The notes below the pieces were generated by a model. It was not told the DNA's origin and ran no database searches. It saw only the letters and a program-made list of their open reading frames with translations. 64,000 nucleotides of DNA, from contig JAMWDI010000005.1 of assembly GCA_023819375.1 (NCBI GenBank), positions 136,423 through 200,422 of the forward strand, written 5' to 3'. Below are positions 6,562 through 18,278 of this stretch, piece after piece. Source of the DNA: Candidatus Omnitrophota bacterium. Lineage in GTDB: Bacteria; Ratteibacteria; UBA8468; B48-G9; JAFGKM01. Each line of letters starts with the position of its first letter. The first letter of the stretch is position 1. Made by a program: the position numbers and the translations under genes.

Positions 6562-9308
6562 AAAGTATTTTTTCAAATCAAATTTATGATATAGTTGTTA
6601 TAGGGGGCGGATGTTCAAGCATAGGTGTAATTCTACCTTTATTGAAAAATAACAAAAAAATTCTCATAATTGAAAGAAGAAGTAATTTAGGCTGGGAAAT
6701 TACTTCTGCTTTTTATACTAAACTAAATAAAAATTTAAAAAGTGATAAATTTATTTTAAAAGAATTAGCAAAAATCGGTGGCATTAGAAATGGTATTACA
6801 AATCCATTCATTTTTGAGGTTTTTCTTGAAAAGTTTTTAAGCAAGAAAAAAGTTGATATTTTATATTACTCATATCCTGTAGATATTATTGAAAGAAACA
6901 ATTTTATTGAAGGATTAGTTATTGGCAATAAAAATGGTTTAGAAGTTATTAGAGGTAAAATCTTTGTAGATCTAACAGATGAAGCACTTTTATTAAAAAA
7001 AATTAATCCTAACATTGAAAAGAGAAGTAATACTCATTTTTATTCAATTTATTTTAACGGTTCAAATAAGGAATTAAAAGAAGAAATCTTAATAGACCAT
7101 CAAATTAATAACAATTTAAAACTTTTATCCCTTTTTCCAGGCTTCAAAAATAATGAAATCTGTTTAAGTTTCAAAACGAACGGTCTATCTTTGACACAAG
7201 TAAGAATAAGAATTCCTGAAATAATAAATTTGATAAGAAAAAATTATAAATTTTTAGAAGATGCTATTGTTACACACATCAGTTTTGAACCATATTATCA
7301 TGACTTATTCTCTTTAAAAAATTCCTTTATTAACTTAAAGAATGTTTTCTACTTAAATTATGAGTTATTTGAAAAAAAGAACAAATTTATAGAAGAATTT
7401 TTAGGTCCTTCAGAAAAATTAGAATTAGGTATTTTAGTTGGAGAATATATAGAAAAGCAAAAAGAACTATTTAAAAGAAAATTAGAAAAAATTGAATGTG
7501 AAAATTATTTTTTAACTCCTGAAAAAGAATATGTTTATGATGTTGTAATTGGAGGAGGTGGAACAGCGGGTGCAATTGCTGGTATTGCATGTGGAAGAAA
7601 TAAAGTAAAAACATCTATAATAGAGAATTCTACATGTCTTGGAGGTATTGGAACAGGAGGAGGTATTCATTATTATTACTATGGTATATCAAGTGGTCTC
7701 CAAAAAGAAGTAGAAACTAAAGTAAATGAACTTACAAATATTCTAAAAGGTAAATTTGATATTCTTGGTTTTCACCCAGAAGCCAAAAAAATTATATTAG
7801 AAGATCTAAACGAAAAAGTCCAGACAGAAATATTTTATGGAAGTAGTATTATAGATGTTGAGGTTTATAATAAAAAAGTAGTTTCTGTTATATGTGCTAC
7901 TCCTGAAGGTATAGTTAGATTAAAAGGCAAAATTTTTATAGATGCAACAGGAGACGGAGATATATGCTCTAAAAGTGGAGAATTTTTCTTTTTTGGAAGA
8001 GAAAAAGATAACTTATGTCAGCCATATAGTATAGTCCCTGTCTGTTTTGACGAAAAAAATGGTAAATTAATACATATAAATTTTGATGCGGGCTATGTAG
8101 ATCCTCTTGATGTCAGAGATTTAACAAGAGCAAAAAGAAATGGATTAAAACACTTCTTTCAAAATTATTATCAAGTTGAAAAAGTTCCACTTTACATTTC
8201 CCCTATTATTGGGATTAGACAAAGCAGACAAATTGTAGGTAAATACCTTTTAACTCTTAAAGATGAAATTTTTGGTTCCCAATTTCCTGATGTTATTGGT
8301 TATATGAGGGCACATTATGATAATCATCTTTTAGAGGATACCGAAAATCAAACTCTTGAAGCAATTTTTTGGAGATGGATTACAAATAATCAACAAACTA
8401 TTATGGAATGTGAAATCCCTTATAGATGTCTTCTAACACAAAATATTGAAAACGTTATTATAACTGGAAGAGCAATTTCTCTTGAACCAGAAGCACATTA
8501 CGCCTTAAGAATGCAAAGAGATATTGAAAGGTTAGGTGAAGTGGCAGGTTTAGCAGCCAGTTTATGTATTAAACATAACAAAAACCCAAAAGATATTGAT
8601 ATAAAAATTTTACAAGAAAATCTTAAAAATTCTGGATGCTTGATTGAAAATTTTATACCACAGAAATCTGTTGATTTTGGACTATCATTTGAAGAATTAA
8701 AAAAAGAATTTTTATCAGGAAATTTTAAAAATTCTGTTATTATTTGGTCTTTTTTTTATTGCAAAAAAGCAATAAAATTTCTCAAAGAAGTTTTAAAAAC
8801 TTCAAATGATTCAAATTTGAAATTTTGGAGTGCAATTATTTTAGCAATGAATAAAGAAAAAGATGCAGTAAATATACTTTTAGAATATTTAAAAAATATG
8901 AAAAAATATGACAGAAAAATTTTCATTTCAGTTATTATCTTGTTAGGGAATGTAGGAAATAAAAAAGTCTTACCCCTTTTATATAAAATATTAATGAACA
9001 AAAAAATATTAGACCCAGATATTTTAATTGCAACTATTCAAACAATTGGTAAAATTGGGAATGAACAATGTGTTTCTATTTTAGAAAAATTCTTGAAAAG
9101 AAAAGATTTGCCTCAAAAAAGGATTTTATATAAAGGAATCCCTGGAGTAATTAATCAAGTTGAAGAAAACATTTTATGGCAAATAGAACTTAATTGTTTA
9201 AAAGTTTTAAAAAATTTTGGTAAAAATAAAAAAGAAATTTTAAATAAATATATTAATGATGAAAGAGGATATGTTAGAAACTTTGCAAAATCACTACTTA
9301 TTCCTTAG
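6558..9308 (+). CDS. Double FAD-dependent oxidoreductase with C-terminal HEAT-like repeats
   Basis: The 916-residue product contains two FAD/NAD Rossmann modules of the FAD-dependent oxidoreductase type (FAD_oxidored-like). The first, at residues about 8-40, reads DIVVIGGGCSSIG. The second begins near residue 324 with VVIGGGGTAGAIAG followed by a Glu-containing second strand, GIGTGGG and DATGDGD, and is the better conserved copy. From about residue 715 to the end, helical pairs spaced about 35 residues apart look like HEAT repeats. Start and upstream stop overlap as ATGA, so translation is coupled to the glycosidase-like gene. The family often sits beside glycoside hydrolases in PVC-type genomes, where oxidation of a sugar moiety is suspected but unproven. 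The first module may be degenerate, since its partner motifs are weaker. Confidence 0.85.
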   Translation: MKSIFSNQIYDIVVIGGGCSSIGVILPLLKNNKKILIIERRSNLGWEITSAFYTKLNKNLKSDKFILKELAKIGGIRNGITNPFIFEVFLEKFLSKKKVDILYYSYPVDIIERNNFIEGLVIGNKNGLEVIRGKIFVDLTDEALLLKKINPNIEKRSNTHFYSIYFNGSNKELKEEILIDHQINNNLKLLSLFPGFKNNEICLSFKTNGLSLTQVRIRIPEIINLIRKNYKFLEDAIVTHISFEPYYHDLFSLKNSFINLKNVFYLNYELFEKKNKFIEEFLGPSEKLELGILVGEYIEKQKELFKRKLEKIECENYFLTPEKEYVYDVVIGGGGTAGAIAGIACGRNKVKTSIIENSTCLGGIGTGGGIHYYYYGISSGLQKEVETKVNELTNILKGKFDILGFHPEAKKIILEDLNEKVQTEIFYGSSIIDVEVYNKKVVSVICATPEGIVRLKGKIFIDATGDGDICSKSGEFFFFGREKDNLCQPYSIVPVCFDEKNGKLIHINFDAGYVDPLDVRDLTRAKRNGLKHFFQNYYQVEKVPLYISPIIGIRQSRQIVGKYLLTLKDEIFGSQFPDVIGYMRAHYDNHLLEDTENQTLEAIFWRWITNNQQTIMECEIPYRCLLTQNIENVIITGRAISLEPEAHYALRMQRDIERLGEVAGLAASLCIKHNKNPKDIDIKILQENLKNSGCLIENFIPQKSVDFGLSFEELKKEFLSGNFKNSVIIWSFFYCKKAIKFLKEVLKTSNDSNLKFWSAIILAMNKEKDAVNILLEYLKNMKKYDRKIFISVIILLGNVGNKKVLPLLYKILMNKKILDPDILIATIQTIGKIGNEQCVSILEKFLKRKDLPQKRILYKGIPGVINQVEENILWQIELNCLKVLKNFGKNKKEILNKYINDERGYVRNFAKSLLIP

Positions 9309-9865
9309 AGGACATTCTGGCCATCCTATTGTTATTTTTGTTGCTATTTATATGTATCAAATTAATCAAATAGATTTTCTCCACAATTGGCGCCAAATCT
9401 ATTTCTAAATTACATTTTTTTCTTTTCAAATTAACTTTCTTCTTACCTTGATTTTTAAGTATAACAATGGATTTGTCTTATATCTTTGTCCTCCATTTGC
9501 TCTACGTTTCTTTAATATCTATCCATTTGTAGATATTAACATTTTTAATAACTTATTCCTCCATTTTTGAAAATAACTATCACCTTGGATTCCTTAAATA
9601 AAAATGAAAACTTTACTCAAAAGAGAAATTAAAGTAAAATTAAAGTGGGAAAAAATTAATTTAAAAGAAGTGTTTTGTATTCAAGAAAAATAAATGAAAA
9701 GAAAAACTTTAAGAGTGAATTTTGCCTTTCATCAATCAAATTGTGTAAAATTTATTCAGAAAAAATTATGAATTATATTATAAGAAAATTAAAAGACAAA
9801 GAGTAAAAATTTAATTTTGACAAAAACGAGAAAATTGTTAAAACTAATTGATAAATAAAAATTTT
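9309..9865. other. Gene-poor stretch upstream of the element's left junction
   Basis: No convincing gene is present in these 557 bases. Two short frames (29 codons from 9605 and 25 codons from 9693) have no recognisable family and no strong ribosome-binding site. The last 60 bases resemble the sequence just upstream of the intact tRNA-Ser at 18167, which is also the 3' end of the integrase gene: ATTGTTAAAAC and ATTGATA are shared, as is an AATTTTGACAAAAA-like block. The stretch may be a shared tRNA promoter or the scar of an older related integrase. Confidence 0.5.
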
Positions 9866-9907
9866 GGAGGGGTCGCACAGTGGTCTAGTGCGGCGGATTG
9901 CTAATCC
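9866..9907 (+). repeat. Left attachment repeat: orphan 5' half of tRNA-Ser
   Basis: These 42 bases match the first 42 bases of the intact tRNA-Ser (18167-18208) with three differences. The match ends abruptly after the anticodon loop: CTAATCC is followed by CTTTT here and by GTTGG in the true tRNA. The last 19 bases, TGCGGCGGATTGCTAATCC, are identical and must contain the crossover. Two of the three differences (C13 and G23 here, T13 and A23 in the intact gene) are compensatory in the D-stem, so this copy is a former functional tRNA half and not random similarity. Confidence 0.88.
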
Positions 9908-9975
9908 CTTTTAAGCCATTTCTCTAAATTCCTGAAAAATCACTAAATCCATTCTCTATCAAGCATTTTACCCAC

Positions 9976-10027
9976 TTTTTCACTTTTTCAATTTTTTTCA
10001 TTTTTTTTCATTTTTTCACATTTTTTT
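9976..10027. repeat. Six T-tracts phased at about 8-10.5 bp (curved DNA or iteron-like)
   Basis: Six runs of 5-8 T, mostly followed by CA, have centres near 9978, 9986, 9995, 10004, 10013 and 10024. Phased A/T-tracts bend DNA. Several units read TTTTTCAC, which resembles a relaxed DnaA box and also occurs as TTTTTCACA in the dnaA-dnaN gap. The tracts lie 70-120 bp inside the left end of the element, a plausible spot for recombination architecture or an origin. Confidence 0.5.
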
Positions 10028-10321
10028 GGTACAAATACGACACAACTATATATTGTATTTTTTTGTTAGAATTTTTCATTTTAAATACTATATATTGTAT
10101 ACCACTAAACCCTTGAAAATTCTTGCTTAAAGAGATATAACTTAAGAAAACCCTTAATAGACAATGCTTTCCAAAACAAGTATAATTAAAACCATTGATT
10201 GACAACAATTAAGGGAGACACCCCACCCTTAAGAACTATATATTTTTTGTAGGAGATAAAAAATGCTGTCCAGAGGGTATGTTAATGAAAAACCATTGAT
10301 AATCAATATAAGAGAGAGACC

Positions 10322-10385
10322 CTCCCCCCCTTAAGGACTATATATTTTGACTGGGTTAAAAATATAGTCCATTAGGGGAGGGAGT
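10322..10385. repeat. Imperfect large palindrome between repeat units 2 and 3
   Basis: GGACTATATATTTT at 10335-10348 is followed after 9 bases by its near reverse complement AAAAATATAGTCC at 10358-10370. The symmetry extends outward as a C-rich arm (CCCTCCCC) against a G-rich arm (GGGGAGGG). The result is a potential cruciform or hairpin of about 25 bp per arm with a short loop. It places an inverted partial copy of the repeat end beside the direct repeats. Confidence 0.6.
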
Positions 10386-10640
10386 ATAGAATTCCTTGAT
10401 AGACAATAAATAGAGGAGCCCCCCACCCTTAAGAACTATATATTTTGGAGACACTCCAGAAAAGCATATTTTTTACAAAATAGTAAATAAATAATGCTGT
10501 TTAAAGGAGAATAGTTTAAATCCATTAATTGATAATAAACATAAATACTTCCACCCCTAAAGGACTATATATTTTTAAAAGTTATATTTTCAAATTAAAT
10601 TATTTTTGATGTATAATAAACTTAAAAAGAAGAATTACAT

Positions 10641-10805
10641 ATGGTAAAAGAAACAATTATAAAATCAAAAAAGATAAATTTTTTGAAAAATACTATTAAA
10701 GAAGCGATTTTAGAAGCGTTAGAAGAGATAGGACTTGCAAAAGCAATTGAAGAGGGTATAAAAACAAAAAATAAGAAAAAGTTAAAAATGCTGTCCAGAA
10801 GGTAG
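10641..10805 (+). CDS. Small 54-residue protein, possible antitoxin remnant
   Basis: The ATG at 10641 opens 54 codons ending at TAG 10803-10805. The product is Lys/Glu-rich with a helical stretch (EAILEALEEIGLAKAIEEG) of the type seen in the C-terminal part of Phd/RelB-like antitoxins. A TATAAT (10612-10617) precedes it. Its last five codons (MLSRR) come from the start of repeat unit 5, so the frame has either been extended or terminated by the repeat. No toxin partner follows directly. It may be a truncated antitoxin or a spurious frame. Confidence 0.4.
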   Translation: MVKETIIKSKKINFLKNTIKEAILEALEEIGLAKAIEEGIKTKNKKKLKMLSRR

Positions 10806-10881
10806 TATGTGAAAACTATTGATAATCAATATAAAAGGGATACCCCCACCCCTAAAGGACTATATATTTTGAAAATTGGGG

Positions 10882-10887
10882 TATAAT
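10882..10887 (+). promoter_or_regulatory. -10 box of the toxin-antitoxin operon
   Basis: A perfect TATAAT lies 24 bp before the antitoxin ATG, with AAAGGAG as ribosome-binding site. Seventeen bp upstream the -35 position falls inside the conserved ACTATATATTTT end of repeat unit 5. Anything bound to the repeat could therefore block or assist this promoter. Confidence 0.5.
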
Positions 10888-10910: not shown

Positions 10911-11120
10911 ATGAATATCAAAGTAAAAGAATTCTTGGTTGATAGAAAAGGAAGACCAAAAGGAGTAGTTTTGAATATTTCTGAATACAAAAAACTTTTA
11001 AAATTTATAGAAGATATACAAGATACACTTGACTTAAAAGAAGCAATAAAGACAAATAAAGGGTTTATTTCAGAGGAAGAGTTGTTAAAGAGATTAAAAC
11101 TAAAAGGGATTAATGTATAA
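10911..11120 (+). CDS. Antitoxin, Phd/RelB-like
   Basis: The 69-residue product begins MNIKVKEFLVDRKGRPKGVVLNISEYKKLL, a beta-hairpin plus helix arrangement typical of Phd/YefM/RelB-class antitoxins (DNA-binding N-terminus, with the 'V(V/I)LNISEYKKL' core). The C-terminal helical part (KTNKGFISEEELLKRLKLKG) would cover the toxin. It overlaps the downstream RelE-like toxin gene by 8 bp, the usual antitoxin-first order. The RBS AAAGGAG sits 5-6 bases before the ATG. The complex would normally repress its own promoter at 10882. Confidence 0.82.
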   Translation: MNIKVKEFLVDRKGRPKGVVLNISEYKKLLKFIEDIQDTLDLKEAIKTNKGFISEEELLKRLKLKGINV

Positions 11121-11364
11121 AGTAATTTTTGATGATAGAATAGAAAAAGATTTAAGTAAAATTCCTGCCAGAATAATAAAAAATATCTTCAAAAAAATAA
11201 CTCTAATTAAAGAAAATCCATATAGTAAGGGAGTAAAAAAACTTATTGGTATAGAAGGTTATAGATTAAGGATAGGAAATTATAGAGTACTTTTCCAAAT
11301 AGATGAAGAGACAAAAACAATAAAAATTTATAGGATAATCCATAGAAAAGATGCTTATAAATGA
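11113..11364 (+). CDS. RelE/ParE-family toxin
   Basis: The 83-residue product has the compact RelE fold signature: YKVIFDDRIEKDLSKIP at the N-terminus, a central helix, then GYRLRIGNYRVLFQIDEETKTIKIYRIIHRKDAYK. The sequence (Y)RLRIGNYRVLF and the basic HRKDAYK tail with Arg, His and Tyr match RelE-type ribosome-dependent mRNA interferases. Its start lies inside the end of the antitoxin gene. Its stop codon overlaps the ATG of the next small gene, suggesting one transcript. It probably stabilises the element or acts in stress or phage defence; that role is inferred. Confidence 0.88.
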   Translation: MYKVIFDDRIEKDLSKIPARIIKNIFKKITLIKENPYSKGVKKLIGIEGYRLRIGNYRVLFQIDEETKTIKIYRIIHRKDAYK

Positions 11365-11735: not shown

Positions 11736-13076
11736 ATGAAACAAAAAATAAAACAATTTTTTTTATGGCTTCCACTGGTTCTTATTGGAGGGTTATTAAT
11801 CATAGGACTTGTTTATGTATTAAAAGAAAACTTTTTGGGGACATCAATTTCAATAGGTTTCGTTGTTTTTAGTTATGCAATAGCAATAGTTATGCCCGAG
11901 ATAATAGAAGAACTTTCTCGGCCAACAAAAATTACTCTTGGTATAATAATTAGCCTATCTCTTACAGGAATAGGAGTTTTGTATTTACAAGAAAAATTTT
12001 TAGTTTTAATAGGATGCACTCTCGGGTTGTTAATGATAAGAAAAGTGTTGTTAGTGATAGGGAAAAACATACAAGCAATAAACGCAAAAATAAAGGAGGC
12101 AAACCCCAAAATTAAACAATGGTTGAAGAATATCTTTTTGCTAATAGGTATTATGACAAGGGAAAATATTTTTAAAAGAAATTTTACACACTCTAAAGAA
12201 ACAGAAATGAAATGGGATGTTAAAGAATTATTTAAAATTGTGAATAAATCGGAGTTAAAATATAAAATACATGGAATAGTAGCAGTAGTTTATATTTTGT
12301 TTTTAACTCTTTTCTTTAATATTCTCGATAACAAAATTCTCCATAATAGTTCATTCTGGTGGATTAGCATTTTATTTTTGGGAATATTTGTTTTAATAGG
12401 ATTTATCCATACATTACTTGACACAATATCATGGCATGGAGTAAAAAATGGATTATTAAAATTTTTTGTTTATTACCCTCTTGTATTAGGAATATGTCTG
12501 TTTCTACACGGAAGAGTAACAGAAATAACTATTGATGGAGAAATAATAGAACCAGAAGAAAATGACAAAATACCAGTGTCTGATGTAGGAAAGTTAATAT
12601 TGCTTATGTATGGTTTGTTTATCTTTTATAGAGCAATTACCTTTTTTGTTTGGTGGGGAGAGCGCAAACAAGTTATAAATTGTTTAAAAAAAACAATAAT
12701 AGAACTATATCAATTTTTGACTAAATCATATAACTCAAAAAAAGAAATAATAAAAAATATAGAAGAGTTTCATCAAAAATTACAACATTGCCCTTTACCA
12801 ACAATAGATACCTTGGTTAAGAAAGAAATAGCCAAATTTTATCTCCGTATTTTTGAATTCAGTGAAAGATTAAAAGAAATTATGGAGACATCTGACAAAA
12901 GGTTTATAAAAAATAAAAATGGAGTATTAACGATAGTTTATGGTGATGAAGAATATTCACTGGGATACCTATGTGAACCATATGTTAAAGAAATAAAAGA
13001 AAATATAAAAAAATTAATGAAGACATATAGAATATCTAAATACGACATTGACATTCCTATGGTAAATTTTGAATAA
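11736..13076 (+). CDS. Multi-pass membrane protein of unknown function (element cargo)
   Basis: The 446-residue product has about eight hydrophobic segments. Three to four lie in residues 8-110 and further ones near 185-205, 210-235, 250-265 and 290-310. A charged loop sits at about 110-180, and the cytoplasmic-looking C-terminal tail of about 130 residues is helical. I do not recognise a family. It sits between the toxin-antitoxin genes and a DUF6804-like membrane gene, which begins right after its stop, so the two may form a membrane pair. As non-core cargo it could be a defence or abortive-infection effector, but no motif supports that directly. Confidence 0.75.
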   Translation: MKQKIKQFFLWLPLVLIGGLLIIGLVYVLKENFLGTSISIGFVVFSYAIAIVMPEIIEELSRPTKITLGIIISLSLTGIGVLYLQEKFLVLIGCTLGLLMIRKVLLVIGKNIQAINAKIKEANPKIKQWLKNIFLLIGIMTRENIFKRNFTHSKETEMKWDVKELFKIVNKSELKYKIHGIVAVVYILFLTLFFNILDNKILHNSSFWWISILFLGIFVLIGFIHTLLDTISWHGVKNGLLKFFVYYPLVLGICLFLHGRVTEITIDGEIIEPEENDKIPVSDVGKLILLMYGLFIFYRAITFFVWWGERKQVINCLKKTIIELYQFLTKSYNSKKEIIKNIEEFHQKLQHCPLPTIDTLVKKEIAKFYLRIFEFSERLKEIMETSDKRFIKNKNGVLTIVYGDEEYSLGYLCEPYVKEIKENIKKLMKTYRISKYDIDIPMVNFE

Positions 13077-13080
13077 AAAC

Positions 13081-13406
13081 ATGTTCCTTAAAATAATAAT
13101 ATGGTTAAAAAATAATTGGTTTAAGGTTATAGTAATATTTCTTTTATTAAAAGCAGTAGGGGAAAATCCTTATTCATATTATCAATTTTTAAGATGGGTT
13201 GTTTCTCTTTCCAGTGGTTATTTGACTTATTCTTTTTTTCCTCAAAAAGATATGTCTGGGTTTGGATATTTGGTTTGATAACCATTTTATTCAATCCTGT
13301 GGAACCTTTTCATTTTTCAAAAGAAACCTGGCATATTTTAGATGTCATTGTAGTAATGGTTTACTTCTTTGTTCTTATTAAGAGGGAAACAAAACAACGA
13401 AAATGA
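13081..13406 (+). pseudogene. DUF6804-like small membrane protein split by a frameshift
   Basis: Starting at ATG 13081 the first frame reads to SYYQFLRWVVSLSSGYLTYSFF and then ends in an unrelated tail at 13278. The -1 frame continues with KRYVWVWIFGLITILFNPVEPFHFSKETWHILDV up to 13406. Joined together they resemble the DUF6804 family (YYQxLRWVV..., FGxxxxLFNPxxPxHxxxExWxxID). The switch point is a run of seven T near 13230-13240, where T TTT TTT is read in the zero frame. Either one T is missing, giving a pseudogene or sequencing error, or the ribosome slips by -1. The gene follows the 446-residue membrane gene within 4 bp. Confidence 0.65.
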
Positions 13407-14013
13407 ATAAGAAAAGAAAATAAATTAAATTTATCTTTAAGTTAGTTTGTGAACTAACTACTACTTTCTGTGGATATTTATAATTAAAACATAATTACAA
13501 CCACAGATGCTTAACTCTACTCCTACTTTGAAATAAAAAAGCAAAATACTATTCAAAATAACCTTCCCTTTATAGGCAAAATAATTTCCCCTGAAATTTT
13601 TCTGTGGGGTCATAACCAGTAGGCAAGGGTGGAAAGTATGGGGATTGGGGGGGTACTCCCCTATTCATATGTAGTAATTTTAATAAAAATGAATTTTACT
13701 CCTCTATAGGGATATCAATGATTTTAGCGATTTTAACAAGGAAAAAAAGTCAAAAAAAGTAATACATTATATGAAGGGAAAAATAAAAGTGAAAGTTATT
13801 CATTTAGAGTTAATACATTACATAAAGAAAAGATAAAGATGGAAAAAAGATAGTAATTCCAATGAAGCAGAAGTTTTTTGAAAGAATATCAATAATTTTG
13901 GTAGTTTTGAGGATAAGTTTAAAAGAAGATGATGACCTAAAAAGTAATATATTAATAAAAAAGTAAAAAAGAATGAAGTTTTAAACAAGGGGAAAAATAG
14001 AGAGGGAAAAAAT
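13407..14013. other. Non-coding stretch inside the element with diverged internal repeats
   Basis: No gene is convincing here. A block around 13690-13776 is repeated with divergence at 13861-13950: ATATCAATGATTTTAGC against ATATCAATAATTTTGGT, each followed by AAAAAGTAATA. The motif TAATACATTAYATRAAG occurs at 13760-13776 and 13811-13827. A frame of 34 codons from 13862 lacks a partner in the other copy, where a stop interrupts it. G-runs occur at 13636-13661. The stretch ends with the promoter-proximal region of the DUF5659 gene. Confidence 0.45.
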
Positions 14014-14310
14014 ATGGAAAAAACCTTTAGAACATCAGATTTCTATCTTACTGCTTACCTTCTTTGTAATGGGTTGGATTTCTCTTACGAAAGAGATGCT
14101 GTAAAAAATAAGGTTGTTTTTATTTTTAAGGATAAAGAAAAAGCAGAAAAATTGGTTGAAGATTATTATCGAGACAGGGCAAAAATCTCCCCAAAAAGGT
14201 ATGTTGAAGTAATTTACTCTCTAAAAAGTTTTCTTTTTGCCCAAAAGGAGGATGGAAATGGAAATAAAAATAGAAATGAAAAAAATTTTGGGAGATACAC
14301 TGCCTCCTAA
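14014..14310 (+). CDS. DUF5659-like protein of mobile elements
   Basis: The 98-residue product starts MEKTFRTSDFYLTAYLLCNGL and contains KVVFIFKDKEKAEKLVEDYYRDRAKISPKRYVEVIYSLKS. This is the pattern of the DUF5659 domain, common next to primase genes in phages and integrated elements. Its biochemical role is unknown. Its last 25 residues are read through the start of the primase gene, so the genuine fold is probably the first 75 residues. AGAGGGAAAAAAT precedes the ATG as a weak RBS. It opens the replication and integration operon that runs to the integrase. Confidence 0.72.
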   Translation: MEKTFRTSDFYLTAYLLCNGLDFSYERDAVKNKVVFIFKDKEKAEKLVEDYYRDRAKISPKRYVEVIYSLKSFLFAQKEDGNGNKNRNEKNFGRYTAS

Positions 14311-14854
14311 TGAAATTCTCAAAGTTTTCCCTCAAGGTAGAGAGTATATAACGAATAAATTAACTTATCTCCTTAATAAGCGTCAGCAATTATTAAACAG
14401 ATTTAAACATTTTCTCAAAAGACAAGATTTAAACTTAGTTGAACTTATTCTTATTAGAGATACATTTAAAGAACGTGTAAAAAAGATAAATAAAGAAATA
14501 AGAAGATTAAAAAGGTATTTAACTTCAGAAATTCAAGATACCCACCTTGAAATAGATATTAGAACCATTAAAGAGAGAATTAATATTATAGATATCTTTG
14601 AAGAGTTGTATCCAGATGCCAAACTTTATAAAACCAGTCGGACCGTCTATACTAACTGTCCTTTTCACGACGACAGACATCCATCCTTTCACATTTACCC
14701 TAAAACTTGCACCTTTTATTGTTATGGATGCGGTGTTAAAGGAGATGTGGTTGATTTAGTTAAGTTATCAAAAGGTTTGACTTTTAAAGAAGCAGTGTTT
14801 TTTTTGAAAAATCTTATAAAAGGAGGAAGATATGAAGAGGAAATTTTTAAATGA
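14258..14854 (+). CDS. CHC2 zinc-finger DNA primase-like protein
   Basis: The frame is open from 14237 (TTG). I choose ATG 14258 because AAGGAGG (14245-14251) lies six bases upstream; ATG 14252 touches that site. The product of about 198 residues has an N-terminal helical part and a C-terminal zinc-finger primase domain with CPFHDDRHPSFHIY and CYGCGVKGDVVDLVKLSKGLTFKEAV, the CHC2 pattern of DnaG primases. No Toprim catalytic domain follows, so it is a stand-alone zinc module. It probably cooperates with the downstream ATPase in element replication. It overlaps the preceding and following genes. Confidence 0.85.
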   Translation: MEIKIEMKKILGDTLPPNEILKVFPQGREYITNKLTYLLNKRQQLLNRFKHFLKRQDLNLVELILIRDTFKERVKKINKEIRRLKRYLTSEIQDTHLEIDIRTIKERINIIDIFEELYPDAKLYKTSRTVYTNCPFHDDRHPSFHIYPKTCTFYCYGCGVKGDVVDLVKLSKGLTFKEAVFFLKNLIKGGRYEEEIFK

Positions 14855-16334
14855 AATAGATGAAATTTTATTGAAAGAGAAAAAAGATAGTTTATCAAAA
14901 GAAGAGTTAAAATTATTAGGGTATGAAGACGATGTATATATCCGGGGGGTAGTCAAGGAAAAGTTAGAGAAAAACAAGATAGAACTTACTTCTCCAACTT
15001 TTCCTCAACTCCGGGATGAAATTATAAAATATTACCCTCTTGATGTTAAACTTTTAAAGACACTCCTTGCTGTGTATGTGGCTAATATGTATGAAGATGA
15101 AACTGAACTACCTGTATGGCTTTTAATCATTGCTCCACCATCTTATGGGAAGACAAAGGCAGTTATACTACTACAAGATTTACCCAATACTTATTTTATT
15201 TCCGAATTAACACCTCATACCTTCTTATCAGGGGATAAAAATACAGAAAACTCTTTGTTATTTAGGTTACCAAAAAAGGCAGTTTTGATATTCAAGGACT
15301 TTACCACTCTTATGGAACTTCCACCTGAAAAAAGAAGCGTGATATTGGCTCAAATGCGAGAAATCTACGATGGTCAGTACATAAAAGAGTTTGGCAGTAG
15401 CACCACGAAAAAATGGAGTGGTAAAATCGGCATCATTGCTTGTGCTACTACTAACTGGTTTTCCTTCCACCATTCAAAGACGATAATAGGGGAACGATTT
15501 TTATTTTACAGAATTTATTACTCTGACGATGAGTTTAATTCTATTAACCAACAAATTTTGAGTAGAAGAATTGATAAAAATGTAGATGTCCACCTAAAAG
15601 GGGTGATTAAAGAGTTTATATCAAATCTTAAAGATTATTCTTATGAACTTAATGAACAAGAGAAAAACTATATTATCAAAACAGCAAACTTCATTGCCAA
15701 GGCAAGATGTGCAGTAGTAAGAGATGGCTACAAAAAAGAAATAATTAACATACCAGAACCTGAAGCACCTTTTAGGATAGTACAACAATTAAGATTGTTT
15801 TATTCAAAACTGCAAACTATTGATAATAACATAGAAGATAATTTAGATGTTATAAAGAAAGTGATTTTAAGTAGTATATCAGAAGAGAGAAGAAAAGTAA
15901 TTGAATTCTTACTTACAAGAGAAGAAGCGGATTTTCAAGAGATAAGGCAGGTAGTTAACATCTCTGACAGCACTTTAAGAAGGACGTTGGAGGACCTAGA
16001 TGTATTGGGAGTTGTTAACAAAGAGAGTAGGGGCAAGGATTACTGGCACCTTAAAGGGGAATACAAAGAAATTTTTGTCCAAGGAAAAATTGAAAACCCC
16101 ACTCCCATAAAGGATTTTGCCTGTTTTTCCTTCACTCACCACCCCCCATACCAGATGGTAGAAAAAATATACGAGGAATACTCTAAAAAGGGAGAAAAAG
16201 CAAAATTTTTACAGCGTTTTCAGAATTATTTAGGAGTTAATGCTTTAGAAGAGTTGGATAAAATACCCATTGAAGATTTAAAACACTTTATCAATGAAAT
16301 GACGAATTTTTGGATAAAGGTTGATTTAAAATAA
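14832..16334 (+). CDS. P-loop ATPase/helicase-like replication protein with C-terminal winged helix
   Basis: The 500-residue product carries a Walker A motif APPSYGKT near residue 100, a Walker B-like strand AVLIFKDF near 150, and a sensor-like segment IIACATTNWF near 200, in the order expected of AAA+ or SF3/D5-like helicases. Residues about 345-405 look like a winged helix (DFQEIRQVVNISDSTLRRTLEDLDVLGVV). AGGAGGAAGAT before the ATG is a strong RBS, and the start overlaps the primase gene by 23 bp. A primase zinc finger followed by such an ATPase is a typical plasmid/phage-satellite replication pair. Helicase activity is inferred. Confidence 0.75.
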   Translation: MKRKFLNEIDEILLKEKKDSLSKEELKLLGYEDDVYIRGVVKEKLEKNKIELTSPTFPQLRDEIIKYYPLDVKLLKTLLAVYVANMYEDETELPVWLLIIAPPSYGKTKAVILLQDLPNTYFISELTPHTFLSGDKNTENSLLFRLPKKAVLIFKDFTTLMELPPEKRSVILAQMREIYDGQYIKEFGSSTTKKWSGKIGIIACATTNWFSFHHSKTIIGERFLFYRIYYSDDEFNSINQQILSRRIDKNVDVHLKGVIKEFISNLKDYSYELNEQEKNYIIKTANFIAKARCAVVRDGYKKEIINIPEPEAPFRIVQQLRLFYSKLQTIDNNIEDNLDVIKKVILSSISEERRKVIEFLLTREEADFQEIRQVVNISDSTLRRTLEDLDVLGVVNKESRGKDYWHLKGEYKEIFVQGKIENPTPIKDFACFSFTHHPPYQMVEKIYEEYSKKGEKAKFLQRFQNYLGVNALEELDKIPIEDLKHFINEMTNFWIKVDLK

Positions 16335-16765: not shown

Positions 16766-16859
16766 TGTGGGATTTTTTAAAAAATTAGACACGATTTTTA
16801 TCTGGTTAATAGTTTTATACTACCTAATAAAAAACAAAGGGATTTTTTTAAAAAAATGA
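16755..16859 (+). CDS. 34-residue single-pass membrane peptide
   Basis: The ATG at 16755 lies inside the end of the Cys-rich gene and the stop at 16857-16859 overlaps the excisionase ATG as ATGA. The product is MVVDVGFFKKLDTIFIWLIVLYYLIKNKGIFLKK with a hydrophobic helix at residues 12-26 and a basic tail. The double overlap with genes on both sides, which fills the gap exactly, argues that it is translated in the operon. A holin-like or leak-pore role is possible but unsupported. Confidence 0.5.
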   Translation: MVVDVGFFKKLDTIFIWLIVLYYLIKNKGIFLKK

Positions 16860-17080
16860 GTAATGAAATTAGAAAAAGATTACTAACAATTAAGGAAGCC
16901 AGTGAATATCTCGGAATATCAGTTAGAGGACTTTACTTAATGGTTTATAGAAGACAGATACCATTTGTTAAACTTGGAGGGAAAATAAGATTTGATGTTA
17001 AAAAACTTGATGAATGGATAGAGAAAAACACTATACCATCAGCAGAAGATTTGATTGAAAAAAAGATTATGTTAAAATAG
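16856..17080 (+). CDS. Excisionase-family helix-turn-helix protein
   Basis: The 74-residue product reads LLTIKEASEYLGISVRGLYLMVYRRQIPFVKLGGKIRFDVKKLDEWIEKN. This is the winged MerR-like helix-turn-helix of the HTH_17/excisionase family (TIKEASEYLGIS...RxxIPxxKxGxxxRF). It lies six bases before the integrase ATG and overlaps the small membrane peptide gene. As an Xis-like factor it would set recombination direction at the tRNA-Ser attachment site; it may also repress the operon. Confidence 0.88.
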   Translation: MSNEIRKRLLTIKEASEYLGISVRGLYLMVYRRQIPFVKLGGKIRFDVKKLDEWIEKNTIPSAEDLIEKKIMLK

Positions 17081-17086
17081 AATAAA

Positions 17087-18181
17087 ATGGGAAGAGTATT
17101 TCAAATAGGGAAAACTTGGTATATTGATGTATCCTATAAGGGGAAGAGAATAAGAGAAGCAGTTGGTAAAGATAAAAAACTTGCCATTACTATACTAAAG
17201 AAAAAAGAGATTGAACTTATTGAGAACAGACATCTGGATATAAAAAGAAATGCAAAGGTTAAATTTTCTGATTTTTCAACGTACTTTCTTAATACATACT
17301 CAAAAGTAAATAAAAAAAGTTGGAAGAGAGACCAATTAAGCATAAACCATTTAAATAAGTTTTTTGGTAGTAAATTTCTATATGAGATAACAAGTAAAGA
17401 CATAGAAGAATATAAGAAAAAACGATTAGAAACAGGAATAAAAACATCTACCCTTAATAGGGAACTTGCTTGTTTAAAAACAATACTAAATAAAGCAGTA
17501 GAATGGGAATATTTAAAAGAGACACCACCAAAGATAAAACTATTTAAGGAAAATAACCAGAGAGTAAGATATTTAACAGAAAATGAAGCAAAAACTTTAA
17601 TAGATTTATCCCCAGAACCATTAAAGGGTATAATAATAATTGCATTAAATACAGGTATGAGACAAGGAGAAATATTAAATCTTAAATGGAAAGATATTGA
17701 TTTTAAGGAGAAAATAATTACCATATGGGATACAAAGAGCAAAGAAAAAAGATATATACCTATAAATGAGATTGTTTATAACACATTACTAAATATTGAT
17801 AGAAATCCAGAAAGTGAATATGTATTTTATGGAGAAGACCCTAAAAAACCTATTTCAGGAAGTTATATAACACATTCATTTAACAGGATAGTAAAAAAAG
17901 CAGGGATAAAAGATTTTAGATTTCACGATTTAAGACATACATTTGCAAGTTGGCTTGTAATGAAAGGAGTAAACTTGAAAACTATACAGGAATTACTTGG
18001 ACATAAAGACCAAAGAATGACGTTAAGATATTCACATTTATCCCCTGAAGTAAAAAAAGAAGCAGTGGAAATTCTATCAGAGAATTTTAATTTTGGCAAA
18101 AATACGGCAAAAGTCAATTTTAACAAAAATAAAAAAATTGTTAAAACCATTGATAGACAAAGGATTGGAGGGGTAGCATAG
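17087..18181 (+). CDS. int: Tyrosine recombinase (integrase) of the tRNA-Ser element
   Basis: The 364-residue product has an N-terminal AP2-like arm-binding start (GRVFQIGKTWYIDVSYKGKR), a SAM-like core-binding domain (about 60-150) and a catalytic domain. The active-site set is complete: Arg in NTGMRQGEIL, Lys in the beta-hairpin (DTKSKEKR), His-x-x-Arg in HDLRHTF, His in LLGHKDQ and the nucleophile Tyr in LRYSHL. The last five codons (GGVA and TAG) are the first 15 bases of the tRNA-Ser gene. The recombinase gene is thus physically fused to its own attachment site, and its stop codon is tRNA positions 13-15. It catalyses insertion at the tRNA anticodon region. Confidence 0.95.
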   Translation: MGRVFQIGKTWYIDVSYKGKRIREAVGKDKKLAITILKKKEIELIENRHLDIKRNAKVKFSDFSTYFLNTYSKVNKKSWKRDQLSINHLNKFFGSKFLYEITSKDIEEYKKKRLETGIKTSTLNRELACLKTILNKAVEWEYLKETPPKIKLFKENNQRVRYLTENEAKTLIDLSPEPLKGIIIIALNTGMRQGEILNLKWKDIDFKEKIITIWDTKSKEKRYIPINEIVYNTLLNIDRNPESEYVFYGEDPKKPISGSYITHSFNRIVKKAGIKDFRFHDLRHTFASWLVMKGVNLKTIQELLGHKDQRMTLRYSHLSPEVKKEAVEILSENFNFGKNTAKVNFNKNKKIVKTIDRQRIGGVA

Positions 18182-18257
18182 TGGTCTAATGCGGCGGATT
18201 GCTAATCCGTTGGTCGGTCGAAAGGCCGGCCCGTGGGTTCGAATCCCACCCCCTCCG
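18167..18257 (+). tRNA. tRNA-Ser (anticodon GCT)
   Basis: The 91-base gene has acceptor arms GGAGGGG/CCCCTCC, a D-stem GCAT/ATGC, an anticodon loop TTGCTAA (GCT, reading AGC/AGU), a long GC-rich variable arm (GGTCGG...CCGGCC) typical of serine tRNAs and a T-arm GTGGG TTCGAAT CCCAC. CCA is not encoded. The 5' half and upstream promoter region are supplied by the integrated element, while the 3' half is chromosomal. Its first 15 bases are shared with the integrase coding sequence. Confidence 0.97.
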
Positions 18258-18278
18258 CCGGAGCCCCGTCCTCCGAAG

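Follow-up and report, generated by a model that had tools for sequence, protein, structure and literature searches.

The satellite PLE carries repeats in a non-coding region (RepA_N iterons) that are bound by its own initiator (PMC7145576), the oriV of SGI1 contains four 17-bp iterons (PMC7433901), and iterons of up to 76 bp are on record from R478 (PMC4980987). The repeat array analyzed here resembles those of PLE and SGI1 in occupying a non-coding region of an integrative element with its own replication protein, but its putative initiator is MCM-like, its units are composites of ~83 bp, and it adjoins attL, ~4 kb from the helicase gene. With the iteron plasmids (RK2, F, P1, R6K and R478) it shares direct repeats in the same orientation near AT-rich DNA and a DnaA-box-like site; it differs from them in its irregular spacing, its composite units and the absence of a classical Rep protein.

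An integrative element in tRNA-Ser

The array belongs to an element integrated in tRNA-Ser(GCT). Within the window (the whole 64 kb stretch of DNA that was analyzed), the attL and attR sequences both correspond to the 5' half of this tRNA gene, and their positions give an element length of 8.3 kb. All of the main genes are on the + strand, and the array sits in the ~730 bp of non-coding DNA at the left end. The borders and principal genes are as follows.

9865-9908, + strand: attL, the element's left border, consisting of the 5' half of tRNA-Ser(GCT) (93% identity over 44 bp to 18166-18209)
10641-10805, + strand: 54-aa ORF, weakly RelB-like antitoxin (Pfam RelB-like, E 0.0015, below cut-off)
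10911-11120 and 11113-11364, + strand: type II toxin-antitoxin (TA) pair, RelB-like/Phd antitoxin and ParE/RelE toxin, respectively (protein family matches)
14014-16334, + strand: DUF5659 protein, CHC2 zinc-domain primase fragment and MCM-like AAA+ helicase with winged helix (candidate initiator)
16856-18181, + strand: xis (HTH_17) and tyrosine integrase, int (protein family matches)
18166-18209, + strand: attR core within tRNA-Ser (18167-18259) (tRNA call and att comparison)

The gene content comprises the 54-aa ORF, the RelB-like/ParE pair, a 446-aa protein, the DUF5659 protein, the CHC2 fragment (Pfam, E 9e-20), a 500-aa AAA+ protein, a small Cys-rich protein, xis and int. For the AAA+ protein, the predicted model (mean pLDDT 71) has its best PDB match among MCM helicases, and Pfam places a winged helix at about residues 350-400. 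The 54-aa ORF, whose last residues (MLSRR) are encoded by the head of repeat unit 5, may be a truncated second antitoxin; a homologue search with it returned no informative match. The 446-aa membrane-like protein (11736-13076) is without a match in Pfam, PHROG or NCBIfam. On the host side of attL, 9806-9910 aligns with 18109-18211 (the 3' end of int plus the tRNA half) with 83% similarity over 105 bp, which suggests that an older, related element once occupied this tRNA-Ser and left the 3' end of its int as a relic.

Host genome aside, homologues of the helicase were found in only one of 145 other genomes and in four of a sample of 385; none was found for the protein in plasmids, phages, viral contigs or named genome contigs. 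The sole complete homologous element found, L153, is 8.2 kb long, resides in a tRNA-Leu and encodes a DUF5659-like protein, CHC2, AAA, xis and int in the same order. MCM-like AAA+ homologues occur in other phyla: L153 (G170:C94), L048 (G054:C31) and L161 (G377:C444), the last with the AAA gene beside an int in tRNA-Arg and with large, possibly defence-type cargo genes.

The repeat units and their architecture

The original prediction of five modules of ~83 bases at the left end of the element was borne out, each module being present at its predicted position and the similarity among them far beyond chance. The five copies share one orientation and span 10164-10870, with the start of unit 3 at 10358/10362; partial sites lie to their left.

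10045-10058, + strand: ACTATATATTGTAT, partial tail-like site (exact repeat of 10087-10100)
10087-10100, + strand: ACTATATATTGTAT, partial tail-like site (exact repeat of 10045-10058)
10147-10164, + strand: degenerate centre block AAAACCCTTAATAGACAA, a sixth centre (2 mismatches to the centre pattern)
10158-10186, + strand: the region's best sigma-70-like promoter, TAGACA-17-TATAAT, at the head of unit 1 (11/12 consensus positions)
10164-10246, + strand: repeat unit 1 (sequence repeats and unit alignment)
10263-10348, + strand: repeat unit 2 (sequence repeats, unit alignment and BLAST self-match)
10358-10446, + strand: repeat unit 3, with an inverted C-arm/tail as its head (repeats, alignment, sequence model and dyad-symmetry test)
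10494-10575, + strand: repeat unit 4 (sequence repeats and unit alignment)
10788-10870, + strand: repeat unit 5 (sequence, repeats and unit alignment)

Aligned end to end, the units are 59-84% identical in pairs. When the window is compared with itself by BLAST, 10259-10350 and 10784-10872 (units 2 and 5) match at 86% identity over 92 bp (E ~3e-20), and other unit pairs reach E values of 1e-12 to 2e-9. Units 2 and 5 are the closest pair (84%) yet are not adjacent, so the array is not a fresh tandem duplication. Gaps between units range from 13 to 212 bp (13-17 bp between units 1-3), and tail-to-tail spacings of 102, 98, 129 and 295 bp are without helical phasing; the distance from centre to tail within a unit is constant in all five at 40-42 bp, or about four helical turns.

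Conservation is highest in the C-arm plus tail (0.94), followed by the head (0.88) and the centre (0.84), and falls to 0.51 in the spacer between head and centre. The 21-bp C-arm plus tail, CCCHWAAGRACTATATATTTT (94% conserved), has five exact matches in the 1.73 Mb genome, every one of them in the array, and ACTATATATT occurs seven times on the + strand of the 64 kb window, all locally (the five tails and the sites at 10045 and 10087). This uneven conservation of blocks, together with their fixed register, has the pattern of a module of separate protein contacts, unlike that of an RNA or a coding repeat.

Four ordered blocks had been assigned to every unit, and in general they are found, except that unit 3 is without the ATGCTGTCC head. 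In its place, 10358-10387 carries the C-arm/tail in inverted form, with 87% complementarity to the unit 4 and unit 5 tails, and 10358-10414 also scored on the - strand with a sequence model of the whole unit. The centre, described as palindromic, is an exact palindrome in units 2 and 5 and in no other, with a shared core TTRATWRWYAA, while the supposed GGGA/CCCACCC hairpin arm did not hold up, its pairing not being kept and its conservation being limited to the C side. Dyad symmetry over the whole unit exceeds that of shuffled sequences in unit 3, weakly in unit 4 and in no other unit.

Transcription from the 10158 promoter could in principle make the units a structured RNA leader or an antitoxin RNA, and units 2 and 3 do fold slightly better than shuffled sequences (z -2.1 and -1.4). 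Units 1, 4 and 5 have no clear folding excess (z -1.1, 0.9 and -0.75), RNAalifold gives a consensus energy of about 0 and a covariation term that is unfavourable, and reading frames differ from unit to unit. Neither covariation nor an Rfam match, either of which would indicate a structured RNA family, was found in the units; RNA and hairpin models were set aside for lack of covariation, and the RNA explanation appears hardly tenable. Promoter-like sites of the sigma-70 type are present in the region at the number expected by chance.

The exclusion of a CRISPR array stands, given units of 59-84% identity, gaps of 13-212 bp and no cas gene in the element. Integron attC sites are similar in being partly palindromic, ~80 bp long and near small genes and a tyrosine recombinase, but the units have no GTTRRRY/RYYYAAC ends and form no cassette array, and the integrase is not IntI: it matches XerA/phage integrase models and falls far short of the cut-off for integron models.

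The tail, a centre-plus-tail pattern and the whole-unit sequence model were each found in this element alone. The whole-unit model scored the five units at 68-85 bits and nothing above 21 bits (best E 4e-4) in 290 other genomes; the C-arm/tail was absent from viral contigs, a looser centre-plus-tail pattern returned isolated, unrelated single chance matches in genome and viral contigs, and searches of phage and plasmid collections for the repeat gave nothing informative. L153 lacks a repeat array, both at the left end and in the rest of the element. The caution attached to the original prediction, that the blocks might be chance AT-rich similarity with no such repeats in any related element, is thus half right: no related element has the repeats, but the blocks are not due to chance. 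As far as seen, and as judged by sequence comparison, the array appears private to this element, ordinary in kind and unique in sequence.

Repeats in relatives L166 and L052 were rejected as counterparts, being coding, and those of L050 were rejected as belonging to a different GAGGGTTG motif. The L050 element, which has a related integrase and resides in tRNA-Thr, has them between genes at 6823-6953, as four copies of a palindrome of the GAGGGTTG type (CAACCYNCAAAATGAGGGTTG). The repeat pattern of the array also picked up by chance a number of IMG/VR contigs (L107-L112, L115-L118, L120 and L122) that have in common a conserved stretch ending in TTAAAAACTATATATAGT.

These searches bear on the proposal that the units delimit small gene cassettes, or that they are a MITE-like mobile repeat. 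One small gene does lie between units 4 and 5, its end encoded by the head of unit 5, and unit 3 is flanked by inverted tails. Against this, no further copy was found in the genome, relatives, viral contigs, phages or plasmids searched, no relative turned up in which another gene occupies a gap, the 13-17 bp between units 1-3 contain no gene, a gene is present in one gap only, symmetry over the whole unit is confined to units 3 and (weakly) 4, and no target-site duplications were seen by eye. The cassette model accordingly fares poorly, and we regard cassettes or a MITE-like repeat as very improbable.

Candidate recombination sites at the element ends

The centre block extends the comparison to the right end of the element, where the following sites are relevant.

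10028-10046, + strand: candidate left arm-type Int site GGTACAAATACGACACAAC (14/16 match to the right arm; position as in five relatives)
18096-18114, + strand: candidate right arm-type Int site GGCAAAAATACGGCAAAAG (14/16 match to GGTACAAATACGACACAAC; family position)
18143-18160, + strand: right-end centre-block copy AAAACCATTGATAGACAA (exact genome match; top non-unit matrix score)

Five relatives, all of them complete elements with related tyrosine integrases (L153, L160, L165, L166 and L167), each have one extra direct repeat of 20-27 bp, with the left copy at about +130 of attL and the right copy at -60 to -80 of attR. These arm-type repeats are built of tandem GNCACA-like words and constitute an exact or near-exact second direct repeat inside the att repeat, which offers a quick way to find element ends. 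Chance 14/16 pairs occur elsewhere in this AT-rich DNA, and the two arm sites here are therefore assigned by location and word structure no less than by similarity. For this widespread integrase family, the comparison defines the arm-type sites as tandem GNCACA-like pairs, fixed in place on each of the two arms.

The array resembles the attP regions of these relatives in lying just inside attL, with one centre copy on the opposite arm, but their arm-type repeats are a different motif in a different place, one per arm. The centre sequence AAAACCATTGATWRACAA has two exact matches in the whole 1.73 Mb genome, in unit 1 and at 18143-18160, the latter in the extreme 3' end of int, a few bases ahead of the tRNA-Ser gene that starts at 18167 and between the candidate arm site and the core. 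When both strands were scanned with the five-unit matrix, this copy ranked first among the non-units of the window (score 19.7), compared with a maximum of 18.3 in 6 Mb of simulated sequence scored with an almost identical matrix, which used the same units with a one-base shift. The copy had suggested that the units are themselves Int arm-type sites, which was ruled out for the units as a whole by the position of the arm sites in the five relatives; the two arms have only the centre block in common, and not a whole repeat at the family positions.

A less direct role in recombination would have the centre blocks serve as binding or bending sites for Xis or an HU/IHF-type protein; attP would then be extended, its left side bearing several of them and the int side a single one. 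The right-arm copy lies where a bending protein would act, its two-match rarity and matrix score set it apart, its reverse complement TATCAATGGTTTT agrees with 8/9 fixed positions of the IHF consensus, the genome has two HU/IHF-family genes, and in L163 a comparable position is taken by TATCAATGTGTTA, which resembles the IHF consensus. Exact IHF matches are below the chance number in the window and exact WATCAANNNNTTR is absent from the units, and the consensus was set aside as proof and kept as a lead. Furthermore, the conserved arm-type repeats of the integrase family lie elsewhere, one per arm and with no extra copies in the five relatives; the units extend as far as ~960 bp away from the core, and the tail, which is the best conserved block, is not found again at the right end. 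We consider such an accessory role doubtful; it comes second, after an origin and ahead of operators.

A candidate replication origin

Three roles had been offered for the array with none chosen: origin iterons, regulator operators and cassette boundaries. Origin iterons fit best, operators are possible for units 4 and 5, and cassettes do not fit. The following features of the left end enter the argument, in addition to the repeats.

9966-10027, no strand: phased T-tracts (T4-T8 every 8-10 bp), probably intrinsically curved (AA/TT periodicity; 10-bp tandem array)
10566-10626, no strand: candidate DNA-unwinding element, the least stable 60 bp of the element (nearest-neighbour stability)

The segment 9960-10084 has the strongest 9.5-11 bp AA/TT periodicity among 1595 sampled window segments, and 10566-10626, directly after the tail of unit 4, has a stability of -0.958 kcal/mol per step vs. 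a window mean of -1.16 (sd 0.07). One DnaA-box-like site, TTTTTCACA, is at 10012, although sites of this kind are common. The array, the phased T-tracts, the least stable 60 bp and TTTTTCACA all fall within 700 bp of the left end.

An iteron origin is expected to have several direct repeats with a conserved core in non-coding DNA, adjacent AT-rich DNA that is easily melted, and an initiator or helicase encoded by the element. The array provides the first, with a near-invariant core of 21 bp, the size of an iteron; 10566-10626 provides the second; and the MCM-like AAA+ protein with its winged helix (the putative initiator) and the CHC2 domain provide the third. Repeats, spacing, AT-rich and phased DNA, replication genes and element boundaries are the observed part of this case. 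The array, phased T-tracts and least stable DNA within 700 bp, along with the element's own helicase and primase domain, make an origin our best guess: the units may be iteron-like sites for initiator binding, perhaps also regulating the TA promoter. We hold this reading tentatively, since L153, which has the same replication genes, is without the array, the helicase gene is ~4 kb away, the tails are not helically phased with one another, the sigma-70 hits are no more numerous than chance, and a non-coding stretch of ~600 bp (13407-14013) directly upstream of the replication genes is another candidate. No repeat array stands out in 13300-14020, upstream of these genes. Origins can change quickly, and a missing array in kin is not decisive.

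If the array belongs to the origin and control region of this satellite-like element, it would act after excision. An element-encoded initiator, most likely the MCM-like AAA+ protein acting through its winged helix, would bind the conserved C-arm/tail sites, and bending of each centre block, in which a host HU/IHF-type protein may have a part, would bring the array and the curved T-tracts into one folded structure. Melting of the AT-rich DNA behind unit 4 would come next and let helicase and primase load. An initiator bound at unit 5 would, in addition, lie over the -35 position of the TA promoter and could tie TA expression to element copy number.

The predicted overlap of unit 5 with the TA promoter is confirmed: its tail ends 11 bp before TATAAT (10882-10887) and covers the presumed promoter's -35 position. 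The 54-aa antitoxin-like ORF has a promoter-like site that unit 4 precedes, and RelB-like matches were obtained for each of the two small proteins, so that the units might instead be operators of small regulators, mainly antitoxins. No gene follows units 1-3, however, the tails of units 4 and 5 differ in their distance to the respective -10 boxes, and the unit is far longer than usual antitoxin operators. Operators as the explanation of the array are unlikely, but an operator role of units 4 and 5, alone or in addition to an origin role, is possible.

A bolder version of the origin reading is that in this bacterial mobile element the origin is recognized by an MCM-like helicase itself, by way of the winged helix, with the 83-bp unit as a composite loading site (an inverted or decayed site, a bend and a direct site) and the TA promoter wired into the array; we put this forward as a long shot. 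Should the array be an origin, a cis element would be defined for small replicons that are integrated in tRNA genes and have the order DUF5659-CHC2-MCM-like-Xis-Int, in a poorly studied bacterial lineage, and the recruitment of an MCM-like helicase in bacteria would become testable.
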